A stretch of DNA of 64,000 nt, taken from the NCBI GenBank assembly GCA_023488905.1, contig JAMDCQ010000015.1:24324-88323 (forward strand). The letters are read 5' to 3'. The translations under genes were made by a program, and so were the position numbers. The stretch is from Candidatus Bathyarchaeota archaeon (GTDB lineage: Archaea; Thermoproteota; Bathyarchaeia; Bathyarchaeales; Bathycorpusculaceae). The notes under the pieces are model-generated. The model was not told the DNA's origin. It saw nothing but the letters and a program-made list of their open reading frames with translations, and ran no database searches. This document shows positions 9,437-64,000 of the stretch, one piece after another; within the stretch, counting starts at the first letter, position 1; every line of letters starts with the position of its first letter.

Positions 9437-9446
9437 CGGAGCAGAG

Positions 9447-9609
9447 GCGTTGCCAACAACTACCAACAGAAAACAAGCCTTAAGCCCCAATCTACTTGCG
9501 GAACACTCCATAACCAGCCAGCAATCAGACACATAAACCAACAACAAAACAGAACAAAAACCAAAACCTGATGGTAGTTGTTGTGTATAGGGGATTTTCG
9601 GCAACAACT
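9447..9609 (+). repeat. Structured dispersed-repeat element (hairpin family), upstream of cdvB
   Basis: AGTTGTTGTGTATAGGGGATTTTCGGCAACAACT (9576-9609); segment 9447-9530 aligns with the reverse complement of 44260-44345. Confidence 0.72.
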
Positions 9610-9698
9610 TGTATCCAAAAAACTCTAACGTATATACCTGCATGTTAGCAACAAATAAAAGCCCAAACCGATGTATCGCCTATCAAGAGGATGTTTAC

Positions 9699-10346
9699 AT
9701 GTCTGAACGATTTGCAAAAAAATGGGAAGCAAAAAAAGAGGATGACACTTTCATAAACACAGTAAAACAAACAATTCAGCCTGAACCGCCACTAAAACCC
9801 CGCCTAGACTTCGCCGTACGGAAACTTGATATGCAGATAAACAAGCTGGATCAAGCCAACGAACGCTTCACCCAAAAAGACAAAGCACTCTTCGCCAAAC
9901 TCGTCGCAGCCTACACAAACCACGACCAAGCCCACGCCAACATCTACGCAACTGAACTGGCTGAAATACGCAAAATGAGCAGACTCATAATGAACGCGCG
10001 CCTCGCACTGGACCAAGTCTCACTAAGAATCAAGACCGTCTCAGAATTAGGCGACGTATGCGCAATGCTTGGACCATGCATCGGCGTTCTACGAAGCGTA
10101 AGCGCAGGCATAGGCGGCGTACTACCCGAAGCAGAAGGAGAACTAGGCGACATAGGCAACATGCTAAGCGGAATGATGTTTGAAGCAGGCACCTCAAGCG
10201 GAATGTCACTGAACTTCGAAAACGTCAACGAAGACGCCTCAAAAATCCTCGCCGAAGCAGCCACCGTTGCAGAACAACGTGTCAGCGCAAACTTCCCCGA
10301 TCTACCACCTGGAATGCCTGGTACGGCAAACAAATCCCAAGTCTAA
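9699..10346 (+). CDS. ESCRT-III / Snf7-like cell division protein (CdvB family)
   Basis: RPRLDFAVRKLDMQINKLDQANERFTQKDK...ASKILAEAATVAEQRV; helical Snf7-like pattern. Confidence 0.82.
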   Translation: MSERFAKKWEAKKEDDTFINTVKQTIQPEPPLKPRLDFAVRKLDMQINKLDQANERFTQKDKALFAKLVAAYTNHDQAHANIYATELAEIRKMSRLIMNARLALDQVSLRIKTVSELGDVCAMLGPCIGVLRSVSAGIGGVLPEAEGELGDIGNMLSGMMFEAGTSSGMSLNFENVNEDASKILAEAATVAEQRVSANFPDLPPGMPGTANKSQV

Positions 10347-17867: not shown

Positions 17868-19643
17868 CTACTTAACCTTTATTAATTCTCCCAAGCTTTC
17901 GAAGTTAATTTTACCCTCAAAGTACAGGTGTAGCAGTTTTGGCAACTCTGCGATTGCGGCTCGGACTTGCTGCCAGCTGTCGCGGTCGCGGATGGTTACT
18001 GTGCCGTCGCTTAGGGTGTCGTAGTCGATGGTTATGCCGAGTTGTATGCCTGCTTCGTCTGCGCGTGCGTAGCGTCTGCCGATGGAGCCTGTTTCGTCGA
18101 ATTCCGTCATGAACCCTTCACAGGCGAGGAGTTTTTGGACTTCTTTAGCTTTGGTGTCCATGCCGTCTTTGCCCATCAAAGGGTAAACACCAACTTGAAT
18201 CGGCGCGATGCTTCTTGGGAAACTTAGAACTACGCGATCATCTTTTAAGCCGTAAGCGTATTCGAGGGCGACGTAGAAGAGGCGGTCGCAGCCGAAACTT
18301 GGCTCCACCACATGGGGCACGAAGCGTTTGCCCCGCACTGTGGTTTTCTGTTTGCCTATTTCGACTTGTTCTTTGAAGATTTGGTAGCCTTCGACTAGGA
18401 TGCTGCCGTCTTTTTCCATGTCGTCCGCAACTTGCTGGGCGGGGACTTTGGCGAGTGCTGCGGCGGCTTTGGCTGCTTCGCCCTTGTAAACGGGGCCAAG
18501 TTTCGCCATGAGGGGTTTAACGGCTAATTCCTCAGTTTCCACTGGATTGGGGAACTCTTTGTAAACGGTCATGTCGACGCCGCTGGCTTTCATATGGCAA
18601 GTGAGGTCGTAATCTGTGCGGTAAGCATGTCCGCTGACTTCCACCCAACCCCAACGGTCAACCATCACCTCTTGGTCAAAACTCTGAGTGCTGTAGTGAG
18701 CTTTTTCCCATGTCAATTTTTCGAGGAAACGCTGTCGACTTGCGGGTACGCCCAGCTCGGTTAGGAGGCGTTTGGCTTGCGCCATGAAGTATGCTTGCCA
18801 CTCGTTTTTGATGATGCCTTTGTCGAGTGCTTCTCGTACAGTAAAGTTGGTTACGTCTTCGCATTCTTTGAGGCGCGTGTCGCATAGCAGTATTGGGAGG
18901 ACTTCGTTTTCTACCTCTGCAAGCCTTTCGCATGCTGGCTCTTCGGGGTCAAAGAAAAACTCTAAATCCGCTATGGTGAATTCTCGGAGGCGGATTAAGC
19001 CTTGTCGCGGTGAGATTTCGTTGCGAAGTGCCTTGCCGATGTTGATGCAGCCAAAAGGTAAGCGTTCGCGTGCGACGTTGTAGAGGCGGTTGAATTCTAC
19101 GAATATGTTTTGGGCTGCTTCGGGTCTGCCGTAGCCGACGGAGCCGCTGTATGGGCCGATGGTGGTTTCGAACATGGTTAAGTAGCGTGTGGGTTCGCTG
19201 AATTTGCCTTTGCAGTCGGGGCAGATGACTTCGTGGCGTTCGAGTTCGACTTTGATGTCGTCGAGGCTCATTTTTTCTGCTTCGGCGCTGCTTATGCCCT
19301 TGTCTTCGAGGAGGTGGTCTGCTCGGAATCGTGTGTGGCAGTTTTGGCATTCCACCATGGGTTCTTTGAAGTGGGCTACGTGGCCTGAGGCTTCGAAGAC
19401 TTTGGCGGGGGCGATGACTGAGGATTCCATTTCGTATATGCCGATTTTTTTGACTACCAGTTCCCGCAGTTTGGCTTCTATGTTCTGTTTTAGGCGTGTG
19501 CCGAGTGGTCCGTATGTGACAAAGCCGCCGCTTCCACCATAAATCTCAAAACTGCTCCAGAAGAAGCCTCGGCGCTTAGCGAGTTCGTTGACTGCTACGA
19601 ACTTGTCGCATTGTGCTTTACTGCATTTAGCTTCGCTACTCAA
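17868..19643 (-). CDS. glyS: Glycyl-tRNA synthetase (alpha2 type)
   Basis: Class II motifs (GPLGTRLKQNIEAKL; RNEISPRQGLIRLREFTIADLEFFF; PHVVEPSFGCDRLFY); probable TTG start. Confidence 0.95.
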   Translation of the reverse strand: MSSEAKCSKAQCDKFVAVNELAKRRGFFWSSFEIYGGSGGFVTYGPLGTRLKQNIEAKLRELVVKKIGIYEMESSVIAPAKVFEASGHVAHFKEPMVECQNCHTRFRADHLLEDKGISSAEAEKMSLDDIKVELERHEVICPDCKGKFSEPTRYLTMFETTIGPYSGSVGYGRPEAAQNIFVEFNRLYNVARERLPFGCINIGKALRNEISPRQGLIRLREFTIADLEFFFDPEEPACERLAEVENEVLPILLCDTRLKECEDVTNFTVREALDKGIIKNEWQAYFMAQAKRLLTELGVPASRQRFLEKLTWEKAHYSTQSFDQEVMVDRWGWVEVSGHAYRTDYDLTCHMKASGVDMTVYKEFPNPVETEELAVKPLMAKLGPVYKGEAAKAAAALAKVPAQQVADDMEKDGSILVEGYQIFKEQVEIGKQKTTVRGKRFVPHVVEPSFGCDRLFYVALEYAYGLKDDRVVLSFPRSIAPIQVGVYPLMGKDGMDTKAKEVQKLLACEGFMTEFDETGSIGRRYARADEAGIQLGITIDYDTLSDGTVTIRDRDSWQQVRAAIAELPKLLHLYFEGKINFESLGELIKVK

Positions 19644-19741
19644 AGATCATTACCTGTTTTATCCCTTTAGGCTGCATTAACAATTAAAACGTTGCCATGC
19701 CCCATTGATTTACTGACTTGTGGACTACCGTTTTTTTCGTT

Positions 19742-20395
19742 AGTTGTTGTTGCAGAAAAACCCCTATACACAACAACAACCAGTGGACTGGGCTGTGGTT
19801 TCTGTTTTGGTTTCGGCTGCTTTTGGCGGTTGCATGCTGGTTGTGGAGATTTCTACAAGCAACTCAGTTTAGCTGTGAGGTTGAGCGTAACTGCGATTCT
19901 TTGACTATACCCCCCCATTTAACAGCAGATCAAAAAATCAATCTTGGAAGATGCCGCTGACCCCTCTTATTTCATCTTCTTCCAGCAGGCTTGGCAGCGA
20001 CGTCTGTTTTGGGTTTAGCTGGTTTCTGCTACGGCAGGCTGGTTGTGGCGTTTTCCGCAAGCAGTCCCGCTTGGCAGACGCGGTTGATGTGGAACAGCCG
20101 CGTTTGCTGCTCTCAGTTGACCCCCCTCCCCTTATTTAAAGCCCCAAAAATCTGTCTTCTCTGCGTTTACACTCTTTATGTGGCTGCGGCGGCTTACGGC
20201 ACACCACAAGACGGCGACTGAGGGCGGTTGTGTTTTGGGTTTGCAACGTTTTTGTGCGTCTGTTTCGGTGTGGTGTGCGAGATTTTTTCCACAAGAACAA
20301 CATACCTCCATGTTGAAGCCGCTACCATGTGAGTGCGAAAAGCCTGTATCGACCGCATTTTCTCCACAAGAATCAACGAACATCAATTAACAGCG
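19742..20395 (-). repeat. Cluster of structured dispersed-repeat units (hairpin family plus ~220-bp element), upstream of glyS
   Basis: Contains AGTTGTTGTTGCAG...CACAACAACAACC, two 18-nt hairpins (19841-19858, 20043-20060), and a ~220-bp segment (~20160-20385) matching 61785-62000 in inverse orientation. Confidence 0.75.
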
Positions 20396-38517: not shown

Positions 38518-38769
38518 AAGGGTCACTGGTTGCTGGGCTTGAAGTAGGCTTTTGATATAAACGTTTAGCAGCCCAAGCGGTTTTGGGTTGATTAAGATCG
38601 AGATGACAGTGGGCACATTTGGGGGTATTAGAATCAGTTGCGGAAACAATAGTGAGGGTGAACTTGGCTGCTTTAAATAAGGGAGGGGAGGTGACTGGTG
38701 AGAGGCCGCGTGGTTTAGCAGGTGGACTACTTTCACGGAAAACGCAGCCGCTGCCACGGAATCACTGTG

Positions 38770-38890
38770 TTTAGGTGCGTTTTTCGCCAACATATTAGGA
38801 TCCAAATATCAGACCCATGCAGAAACCTAAAGAGGGATCCTAACAGGCGGCAAGTGGGTGCGTTTAGCGCATTGCCCAGTGCAGAAAAAA
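38770..38890 (-). repeat. Dispersed intergenic repeat, ATATTTGGATCCTAATAT family, copy 1
   Basis: Core 38792-38809; aligns with 49300-49400 and 57974-58080. Confidence 0.65.
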
Positions 38891-43025: not shown

Positions 43026-44087
43026 TTAGTTTTTTCCGTCTTTGCACTCAGGCGCGATAACGGGTTTTAGCTCGATGTATTGTTGGACTGAAAAACCAAT
43101 CAAGAAACGCAACCACAGGGTAATGATTCTTGTCAGTATAGTAGCAGTCGCAGCGAGTTCCACAGAGATACCCATCGAAAAATAGAGTGTGGTCATGGCT
43201 GCTTCGGGGAGCCCCACCTCAAAGGGTATACCCACCGGGATAGATTTTACGGCTAAAACGATGGCTGCTGTGACCAGAATCACGCTCCAAGACACGGGGT
43301 GCCCTAATGACCAAAAAACAAGGTATGGCACGCTTAAGCTGAAAAACCATGTTACGCCGAGGTAGAATAGGGATTGCGCGAGGGGTTTTCTGTTTCGGCG
43401 GAATTCGATCATGGCGTCGTGGAAGTGATCGGTGGTTTCTAAGGCGTGGGTTTGGAATTTGCTTAGTGTCCATTTTCCCAGTGAGAGTTTTGTGGTTATT
43501 TTTGTGAGCCAGTTGACGATTTTTAGCGTTACTGACTTCTTAAAAGACATGATTGCCAAAACGGCTGTTATAGCTGTTATGGCAGCTGCAACAAAGATGA
43601 TGATGTTAAAAACGGCGGCGGGAACTTGAACTTCAAAATACAGCAAAGCCACGCCTAAGATGAGGATGACTACGTTCATCGTCATACCCAAAAGTCGATG
43701 GGTAAATAGTGAAGCAACAACTTTTCCAAATGAGCCGCATCTGTCACGGGTAAGAAGGTAGGTGCGGACTACCTCGCCACTGATTGATTCTGCAGGCACC
43801 ACTATGTCGACGTATAAGCTGTACCAGAGGTAGAGGTAGGCTTTTTTGACGGTCATTTTGATGTTTAGGTGCTTGGTTAGTGACTGCCAGGAGACAGCGT
43901 AGAACAGGACTTCCAGTAATCCGCAGCCGACGGCTACAGCGAAAATCAGCAGATTCGCGGTTTTTGCGGTGTCTATGATGGCGAAAATGTCGACTTCGAA
44001 GAGGTAGATGTAGAGGAAGAAGGCTACTAAACCAAGCAGTGGAAACAGTAATGTTTTCCAAGTTATCTTCGGTTTAGGCGTTTCCAT
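43026..44087 (-). CDS. Lysylphosphatidylglycerol synthase TM region / flippase-like UPF0104 membrane protein
   Basis: Multi-TM protein with VPAESISGEVVRTYLLTRD and LGVTWFFSLSVPYLVFWSLG, LPEAAMTTLY. Confidence 0.8.
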   Translation of the reverse strand: METPKPKITWKTLLFPLLGLVAFFLYIYLFEVDIFAIIDTAKTANLLIFAVAVGCGLLEVLFYAVSWQSLTKHLNIKMTVKKAYLYLWYSLYVDIVVPAESISGEVVRTYLLTRDRCGSFGKVVASLFTHRLLGMTMNVVILILGVALLYFEVQVPAAVFNIIIFVAAAITAITAVLAIMSFKKSVTLKIVNWLTKITTKLSLGKWTLSKFQTHALETTDHFHDAMIEFRRNRKPLAQSLFYLGVTWFFSLSVPYLVFWSLGHPVSWSVILVTAAIVLAVKSIPVGIPFEVGLPEAAMTTLYFSMGISVELAATATILTRIITLWLRFLIGFSVQQYIELKPVIAPECKDGKN

Positions 44088-44172
44088 AGCAACCAGAGTA
44101 AAGATGGAGTTATGAATTAGCGATTATATACTTTGTTCAGATACTTGTTGATTGTGTTGTTTGTTTTTCTAT

Positions 44173-44462
44173 AGTTGTTGTTGCCGAAAAAGCCCTATAC
44201 ACAACAACAACCAGTGGGCTTAGCTGGCGCGTCTGTTTTGTTTTCGGTTGATTTATGTGATTGCTGTCTGGTTGTGGGTTGCGCCACAAGTAGATTAGGC
44301 TGGTTTGCTATGGTTGTTTTTTTTCTATTGATAGTTGTTGCCGAGACCCCCTCTTGTTTCAACAACAACCAACGGATTGCGTAGAAGATTGTGTTTTTGT
44401 TTCTGCGTCGAGTTTGGGTTGCAGACTGGTTGTGAAGTGCACCACAAGTGCATCCGCTCATC
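44173..44462 (-). repeat. Structured dispersed-repeat element (hairpin family), two tandem units, upstream of the flippase-like gene
   Basis: AGTTGTTGTTGCCGAAAAAGCCCTATACACAACAACAACC (44173-44212), TTGTGGGTTGCGCCACAA (44272-44289), second unit with TTGTGAAGTGCACCACAA (44430-44447). Confidence 0.75.
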
Positions 44463-57973: not shown

Positions 57974-58080
57974 CACAGTGCCCCTCTGCGCATAACGCAC
58001 ATTCCTACCGCCGTTTAGAGTCCTCTATAGGTTTTTGCATGCCTCTGATATTTGGGTTCTAATATGTCCACGCAAAACGC
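57974..58080 (+). repeat. Dispersed intergenic repeat, ATATTTGGATCCTAATAT family, copy 3
   Basis: Core 58048-58065 (ATATTTGGGTTCTAATAT); flanks align with copy 1. Confidence 0.62.
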
Positions 58081-58188
58081 ACCAAAACAAAGTGATCACG
58101 TGGCAACAGTTGCGTTTCCCATGAAACCTCTTAAAAACCATAATCCTCACTGTAAACCTATTCTTAGCACGACTAAAAAAGTAAGATG

Positions 58189-61748: not shown

Positions 61749-62016
61749 TATCAGTAGATCAAAAAAGAGTTGGTTGGGTTGCTTGGTTCTTGTGGAAGAA
61801 AAAAGCAGTCGATACATACTTTCACATTCACATGGCGGCGATTTCAACATAGAGATATGTTGTTCTTGTGGAGAAAAACCCACAGCCCACACCCAAACAG
61901 ACGCAGAAAAAAGCTGTAACCCCAAAACACAACCGCATACAGCTGCTGTCGTGTGGTGTGCCGTAAGCCGCCACACTCACATAAAGAGCGCAGAACAAAA
62001 TTTTGATCTACTGATA
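61749..62016 (+). mobile_element. MITE-like element: 16-bp perfect terminal inverted repeats enclosing a ~220-bp segment also found inverted at ~20160-20385
   Basis: TATCAGTAGATCAAAA (61749-61764) and TTTTGATCTACTGATA (62001-62016); interior ~80% identical by eye to the reverse complement of 20160-20385. Confidence 0.55.
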
Positions 62017-62264: not shown

Positions 62265-62363
62265 AGAGGCAAAGTCTTGGTCACACACCAATTTTTCGCT
62301 GTTTGAATTGGCGCGCTCTTGTGCCTCAGTGCATTGCATCTAAAGCTTGCTCCCTGACCTGCA
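62265..62363 (+). repeat. 99-bp repeat, copy 1 (inverted relative to copy 2 in leuS)
   Basis: Exact reverse complement of 63611-63709. Confidence 0.95.
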
Positions 62364-62748
62364 ATTACCTTATTGTATTTGGCAAGTAATATATTTTGCG
62401 ACAAATGCGGCACAAAAAAGTATGAAAATGCACCAATTGATACATACAGAAAAATCCACACCCTAACGTAGGTTACCCAAACAAACAGCGAAGCTACAAC
62501 TCAGTTCGCAAGTGTTGACGTCGCCGCACGTCTCTACGTTTCTGCTCCTCACGGAAATATTGATCACGGACGTCAATTTTTTCATTCAGCTGCATGTCTG
62601 CGTCTAGCAAATGCAGTTTATGACGTTCTTGTCGGTGTCGCTCTCTATCAGCATACCGATTCTCGGTCACCCCGATACGCCCCAAGATAGAACGACGCAT
62701 CCAAAAATTTATCGTTTTTTAGGAGACACCGCTATGCTACTGAAGCAG

Positions 62749-63400: not shown

Positions 63401-64000
63401 TTATTCAATGTAGATTGCTGGCTGATAGGGCATTGTCATTGCTGCGCGGCTTTTGGGGTCAAAGCGTGCGGTGTCGGATTCACTGTAAACAGCGATTTCT
63501 GCGTTGAAGCGGTCTTTGTAGAATGCTGCCGCGCCCTCGAGGATTGTTTTTTCGTCTACTTCACGGATTTTTGTCATGTTAGCTTTGCGGTCGCCTGAAA
63601 CTTTGGTAAGTGCAGGTCAGGGAGCAAGCTTTAGATGCAATGCACTGAGGCACAAGAGCGCGCCAATTCAAACAGCGAAAAATTGGTGTGTGACCAAGAC
63701 TTTGCCTCTCATTGGTGCGATGTCCTTCATATGCGGCTTCAGTGCTGGGTCAGCGGCGAATTCCTTCATCAACTCGCTTATTTTTGCTTCGCCAGCAACG
63801 GTTTTCTCTACGATTTTGAGGTAAACCTGCCACTTCCATTCTGCCGCTGTGTAGTAGATTATGCGTTTAGGGGAGATTTTCATGGCTTTTAAGATGTTAT
63901 TCGTGTCCCCCATAACATCGGTCACAAGGTTTTCCTGCTCTTCAGCGGCCACATCAACCTTTGCGGGGTCATACACTGGCAGAATGGAAGTGGCAGGTTT
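63401..64000 (-). pseudogene. leuS: Leucyl-tRNA synthetase C-terminal part (truncated at window edge), interrupted by a 99-bp insertion with in-frame stops
   Basis: ...ILKAMKISPKRIIYYTAAEWKWQVYLKIVE...KPHMKDIAPM [99 bp] LTKVSGDRKANMTKIREVDEKTILEGAAAFYKDRFNAEIAVYSESDTARFDPKSRAAMTMPYQPAIYIE*. Confidence 0.82.
63611..63709 (-). repeat. 99-bp repeat, copy 2, inside leuS
   Basis: Exact reverse complement of 62265-62363. Confidence 0.95.

Follow-up and report, generated by a model that had tools for sequence, protein, structure and literature searches.

What is the hairpin that stands shortly before a CdvB-like gene in this archaeal genome: a regulatory element shared by unrelated genes, or one copy of a repeat that has moved? 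A preliminary description of the window (the whole stretch of 64,000 nt analyzed here) had placed the same hairpin upstream of cdvB, glyS, and a flippase-like gene at near-constant spacing, and had proposed that it is a common regulatory element or an ncRNA or, alternatively, a mobile repeat directed at promoter-upstream DNA. Here we report that the hairpin is probably the 3' terminus of a repeat that belongs to a non-autonomous, MITE-like family of ISH3 type.

The hairpin AGTTGTTG-N18-CAACAACT is an exact pattern match at 9576-9609 on the plus strand, and the pattern was present in 0 of 100 dinucleotide shuffles. Folded alone, it reaches -8.6 kcal/mol (z -2.5), and 89 nt separate its end from the ATG at 9699, exactly as described. 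The translation of the gene that starts there (9699-10346, plus strand) is CdvB-like (ESCRT-III/Snf7) and gives a Pfam Snf7 match (E 1.5e-4) that falls below the Pfam cut-off. When the own genome was searched with an 81-nt query centered on the hairpin region, 40 sites matched. Alignment of these with their flanks showed that homology spans a 136-nt core, 133-138 nt long in 39 of the 40, with the consensus CTGnnCTGCTTGTGGnnnnnnCCACAACCAGCCTGCAACC...GCCGAAnCCAAAAC...CGCTGGTTGTTGTTGTGTATAGGGGnTTTTCnGCAACAACTACTATAGAAAAAA. In the core at 9487-9622 (plus strand), the hairpin described above is the 3' one (hairpin 2).

A covariance model of the core, R1, was built and run on the own genome (1.79 Mb). 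In the window it identifies five clear copies, with the copy upstream of cdvB scoring 122 bits. The previously noted copies before glyS and the flippase-like gene proved real. The first (19732-19867, minus strand, 142 bits) is upstream of a gene (17868-19643, minus strand) whose product, a class II tRNA synthetase that includes an anticodon-binding domain, fits glyS; the second (44163-44298, minus strand, 134 bits) is upstream of a gene starting at 44087 that encodes an LPG_synthase_TM-type membrane protein. Two clear copies missing from the preliminary description stand in tandem with these, at 19933-20069 (minus strand, 55 bits, stem of the GAAGAAG type) and at 44320-44456 (minus strand, 100 bits, loop GAAACAAGAGGGGGTC). 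On contigs C14, C17, C4, C5, and C12 of the own genome, cores often form same-orientation pairs with a spacing of 143-205 nt (157-160 nt in four), and no convergent pairs within 800 nt were seen there.

The own genome contains about 110-120 core copies (119 at E<=0.01), nearly all of them 130-138 nt long, and the family makes up ~0.9% of the genome (119 x 136 nt). Gene context was read from the stretches around the copies with a simple gene finder, in which start sites are approximate. By this measure, 109 of the 119 copies overlap no called gene. Among 108 unambiguous copies, the gene 3' of the core shares the strand of the core in 58 cases and lies on the opposite strand in 50 (P 0.50), so that roughly every second copy points toward the 3' end of the neighboring gene. 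Spacing between core and gene is variable (quartiles 88-295 nt); only 9 of 108 copies are positioned 80-100 nt before a start. Thus, the copies show neither the uniform orientation nor the uniform distance to the gene that would mark a promoter-linked regulatory element, and a common regulatory element at near-constant spacing finds no support across the genome. The preliminary description had itself suggested this tabulation and had counted random orientation and distance against its proposal; orientation was random and distance variable.

Distances from the core to gene 5' ends have 10th percentiles of 70-122 nt, and those to 3' ends of 7-47 nt. Spacing appears constrained only because copies avoid the vicinity of gene 5' ends, whereas they come close to 3' ends. 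Such avoidance is expected if elements insert and selection then removes those that damage promoters, which accounts for the near-constant spacing in the three cases originally noted.

The flanks of many cores bear an inverted repeat, and the elements end in CAGTAGATCAAA...TTTGATCTACTG (12 bp). This motif has 131 matches in the own genome (69+62), compared to 23 (10+13) for a reversed-motif control. At least one terminal inverted repeat (TIR) lies within 60 nt of 56 of the 119 cores, and both TIRs at 21 (reversed-motif control, 4); in the window, sequence and motif scan place the right TIR of copy 19933-20069, TTTGATCTGCTG, at 19923-19934 (minus strand). About 33 TIR pairs shorter than 500 bp belong to the family, mostly of 162-184 and 254-278 nt. 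The short class contains the core, and the interior of the long class is distantly similar to it. A complete long-class MITE of 262 nt occupies 61752-62013 (plus strand), with TIRs CAGTAGATCAAA at 61752-61763 and TTTGATCTACTG at 62002-62013; it was delimited from the TIR pair, its flanks, the sequence, and an alignment of 14 such elements, and its interior gives a weak R1 match (16.7 bits at 61857-61987). Other long-class MITEs of the own genome are located at C5:45002-45279 and C5:48444-48721.

With the ends set at CAG...CTG, the four flanking bases are identical in 12 of 37 TIR pairs, compared to 5.3 expected (0 of 2000 shuffles). These duplications read TTAA, TTAT, or ATAA; among the 37 pairs there was no excess at 2, 3, 5, or 6 bp, and in the remaining pairs the 4-bp duplication is absent or decayed. 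Among the TIR-bounded elements of the long class, interior identity reaches 100% for two and 98% for two, and their flanks match no better than random sequence would. Copies that are 100% identical in unrelated flanks have therefore moved recently.

One TIR pair encloses 1113 nt. An insertion sequence of this length at C22:38857-39969 has the same ends as the MITEs (CAGTAGATC), is flanked by TTAT on both sides, and encodes a 347-aa DDE transposase. By far the best family for this protein is ISH3 (NF033541, E 4.3e-51), at 173.8 bits against an NCBIfam equivalog cut-off of 225; it also matches DDE_Tnp_1 (E 1e-11). The end of a second copy is found at C6:3-83, a contig end, and a 682-nt TIR-bounded element in G013 holds just a piece of the transposase. 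Judging by the shared ends, the transposase encoded at C22 presumably moves the core. An origin of the core as an internally deleted version of this insertion sequence was rejected, as no similarity was seen beyond the ends.

Comparison of species also bears on mobility. Copy #10 is present in G000 and absent from the syntenic site of the sister species G011, where the gap measures 73 nt rather than 215 nt, a difference of 142 nt; at single-base resolution, this empty site is not a clean one. At another syntenic place, G011 has one core and G000 two in tandem. These cases show a difference between the species and do not establish the direction of change. In related species with a core beside the same gene as in G000 (L134-L163), the shared gene nearly always lies on the 3' side, with rearrangement 5' of the core, albeit in small numbers.

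At the level of the family, we thus observe the features of a MITE: short elements with TIRs, a target duplication, no transposase of their own but an autonomous partner whose ends match theirs, and mobility. The suggestion of a mobile repeat consequently stands for a large subset of copies, based on TIRs, 4-bp duplications, a matching insertion sequence, and identical elements in unrelated flanks, whereas that of a general regulator finds no support genome-wide. There are observations against the assignment to MITEs. No TIR could be recognized at 63 of the 119 cores, which include the copy at cdvB and the majority of those with the highest scores, or at any of 24 cores sampled from G011 and G024. 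In most core-rich relatives (G009, G011, G014, G016, G024, and G029), a search for a close transposase found none. Moreover, the core shares only its ends with the insertion sequence, the empty site of copy #10 is unclean, the ISH3 score is below the cut-off, and hairpin 2 covaries, something not required of a passive passenger.

The covariation of hairpin 2 is pronounced. Across 111 distinct copies from nine genomes, its seven pairs form in 95.7% of cells, and 32 cells are changed on both sides compared to a shuffled mean of 4.8 (0 of 500 as high), in an alignment fitted to a model that contains hairpin 2 and so favors it. The exchanged stems are evident by eye (GTTGTTG/CAACAAC, GAAGAAG/CTTCTTC): pairing is kept while whole stems change. 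Selection for this pairing could act at the level of DNA, in transposition, or of RNA. The remainder of the core gives no folding signal, as the stability of the full-core fold does not exceed that of shuffles (z 0.2, -1.3, -0.6). By eye, TTGTGG...CCACAA forms an inverted repeat of 5-6 bp, a candidate first hairpin that RNAalifold on 40 copies did not predict, and a long-range pairing CAACCAGC...GCTGGTTG is suggestive in some copies, likewise by eye alone. A protein-coding core was rejected: frame 1 is open in only 36 of 100 copies, with no third-position pattern and no start codon.

The constant length and the conserved, covarying 3' hairpin would also fit a family of small non-coding RNA genes in which each copy is a transcription unit, and a TATA-like TTTTTATAAGGGG lies upstream of some copies. 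We regard this as extremely unlikely: Rfam has no match in the window at gathering thresholds and none at E<=1 over 9440-9700, a constant upstream promoter is absent, with a 5' flank that varies between subfamilies, and the whole core gives no folding signal.

The same hairpin, together with the missing TIRs, bears on a further alternative, namely, that the core is an independent intergenic repeat, REP- or ERIC-like in habit and spread by an unknown mechanism, whose ISH3-type ends reflect secondary capture by a MITE. Core length is constant in all genomes, the best-conserved cores mostly lack TIRs, as do the sampled cores of G011 and G024, and several different 5' modules precede the same core. 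These points, and the covariation, weigh in its favor, but TIRs occupy a consistent position in the 56 cores that have them, and TIR-bounded cores are found also in G013 and G016, i.e., in three species. REPs have the form of a tetranucleotide plus a short palindrome, which the core lacks, and the genome contains no RAYT-type (Y1) transposase. Overall, we consider an independent repeat rather unlikely. A REP/RAYT system proper was rejected, with 0 matches to PF01797 (Y1, IS200-like transposase) in the genome and matches in control genomes. An integron-like attC site, considered for its paired CAAC/GTTG arms, was dropped, as the copies are dispersed in both orientations.

The core was matched by a DNA query in 12 of 32 genomes of the genus, the own included, and in 0 of 29 genomes of other genera, a query of modest sensitivity. 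Seven related genomes have 16-85 copies each, almost all equal in length. For 86 of 110 sampled copies, the nearest relative lies in the same genome (17 expected).

How, then, did a core come to lie before cdvB? The gene was detected in every one of the 32 genomes of the genus. Upstream DNA was retrieved for 30 of them, and 28 of these sequences could be aligned with the start codon as anchor. A promoter/leader block of ~70 nt, ACGTATATACCTGCATGTTAGCAAC...GAGGATGTTTAC (9628-9698, plus strand), is conserved in all 28 readable species, whether a core precedes it or not; it contains a TATA-like sequence at about ACGTATATACCTGCATGTTAGCAAC. The spacing between core and cdvB is due to this block. 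A core directly precedes the block, in the same orientation, in six species (G000, G011, where it is decayed, G014, G022, G024, and G029), and none was detected at this site in the remaining readable species. The cdvB-site cores of G014, G024, and G029 give values of 73-77 against the best paralogue of their own genome and of 16-35 against the G000 copy. Only the pairs G000-G011 and G024-G022 look inherited together; the cdvB protein of G011 is 97% identical to the own one. As cdvB-site copies mostly resemble the repeats of their own genome and not one another, either the site was occupied about four times or its residents were homogenized within each genome. In G011, a synteny breakpoint falls within 5 nt of the 5' edge of the core at cdvB.

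This occupancy of one site in six species, in one orientation, speaks against a complete dismissal of a regulatory reading. Control of the downstream gene (cdvB, glyS, or the flippase-like gene) by a cis-regulatory element or a 5' leader RNA would agree with it, and with the compensatory changes in hairpin 2. Nevertheless, such a role is very unlikely: orientation is random genome-wide, with about half of the copies facing the 3' end of the next gene, the core is absent at cdvB in other readable species although the promoter block is conserved, and the full core folds no better than shuffles. At cdvB, the core precedes the TATA-like sequence and so probably lies outside the mRNA. We also think it improbable that the core is a structured element recognized in trans, with a hairpin evolving in step in each genome, that was repeatedly recruited or homogenized before the cdvB promoter and modulates cdvB in several lineages. 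The cdvB copy seems to have no general regulatory role. No TIR was recognized at this copy (9487-9622), and it would belong to the MITE-like family by homology of its core only.

For a MITE-like family, the following course of events is proposed. A full short-class element of ~162-184 nt would consist of 12-bp ends, CAGTAGATCAAA and TTTGATCTACTG, around the 136-nt core with its conserved 3' hairpin. The ISH3-like DDE transposase from the 1113-nt insertion sequence would recognize the shared ends in trans and move the element into TTAW sites, leaving a 4-bp duplication. Surviving insertions would be mainly intergenic and away from promoters. Ageing copies would lose their ends until the core alone is recognizable, as at cdvB, and copies without ends would accordingly descend from TIR-bearing ones.

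Other repeats are found near cores. A G-rich module, TTTATATAAGGGGAGGGGGTCTCGGTGAGAGCAACAAAC, stands upstream of roughly 20 cores and abuts many TIRs (in the window, 20120-20142 and 38670-38692); at C20:24286-24303 it makes a 35-nt near-perfect palindrome, GACCTCCCCTCCCTTATATAAGGGGAGGGGAGGTC. This module may be a preferred MITE target. A dispersed repeat, GACATATTAGGATCCAAATATCAGATGTATGCAGAAACCTATAGAGGG, occurs in the window as 80% identical inverted copies (38731-38844 and 58013-58126) and elsewhere upstream of some cores. A 105-nt inverted repeat, 99% identical, is located at 62265-62369 and 63605-63709, and a fold-back (63823-63850/63973-64000) at the end of contig C14, where the window also ends; both are possibly an assembly artefact.

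In conclusion, this looks like a MITE family of an uncultured archaeal lineage, which may be bathyarchaeal to judge by its gene content, with a likely partner insertion sequence; no description of it was found in the literature searched. Knowledge of the family keeps hundreds of intergenic hairpins from being taken for riboswitches or regulators. Its less ordinary features are an internal hairpin with compensatory exchange of whole stems and the repeated or homogenized occupation of the site before cdvB.

Among known systems, REP/BIME elements with RAYT are similar in high copy number and an intergenic palindromic part, but the core unit is much longer and the genome lacks a Y1 transposase. 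The ERIC elements of enterobacteria are roughly of the size of the core. Like these, the core is intergenic and varies in copy number between relatives, but its sequence is unrelated and its host belongs to a different domain. Insertion sequences of the ISH3 family have ends of CRGT, 4-5-bp duplications, archaeal hosts, and lengths of 1225-1500 bp (PMC2266710). The ends of the C22 element start with CAGT, its duplication is of 4 bp and AT-rich, and its host is archaeal; by contrast, its 1113 nt are below the range of the family (PMC2266710), and its transposase scores under the equivalog cut-off. Prokaryotic MITEs, for example, Sulfolobus SM1-SM4 and Correia elements, are <500 bp long with inverted repeats of 4-30 bp, duplications at part of the copies, an intergenic copy number from tens to >100, a partner insertion sequence, and an internal stem-loop (PMC10969869). 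The core family differs from these in that about half of its copies lost or never had TIRs and in its interior, a fixed 136-nt core whose hairpin covaries and whose variants are specific to each genome. It resembles them in size, inverted repeats, duplications in some copies, intergenic copy number, a partner insertion sequence, and a stem-loop (PMC10969869).
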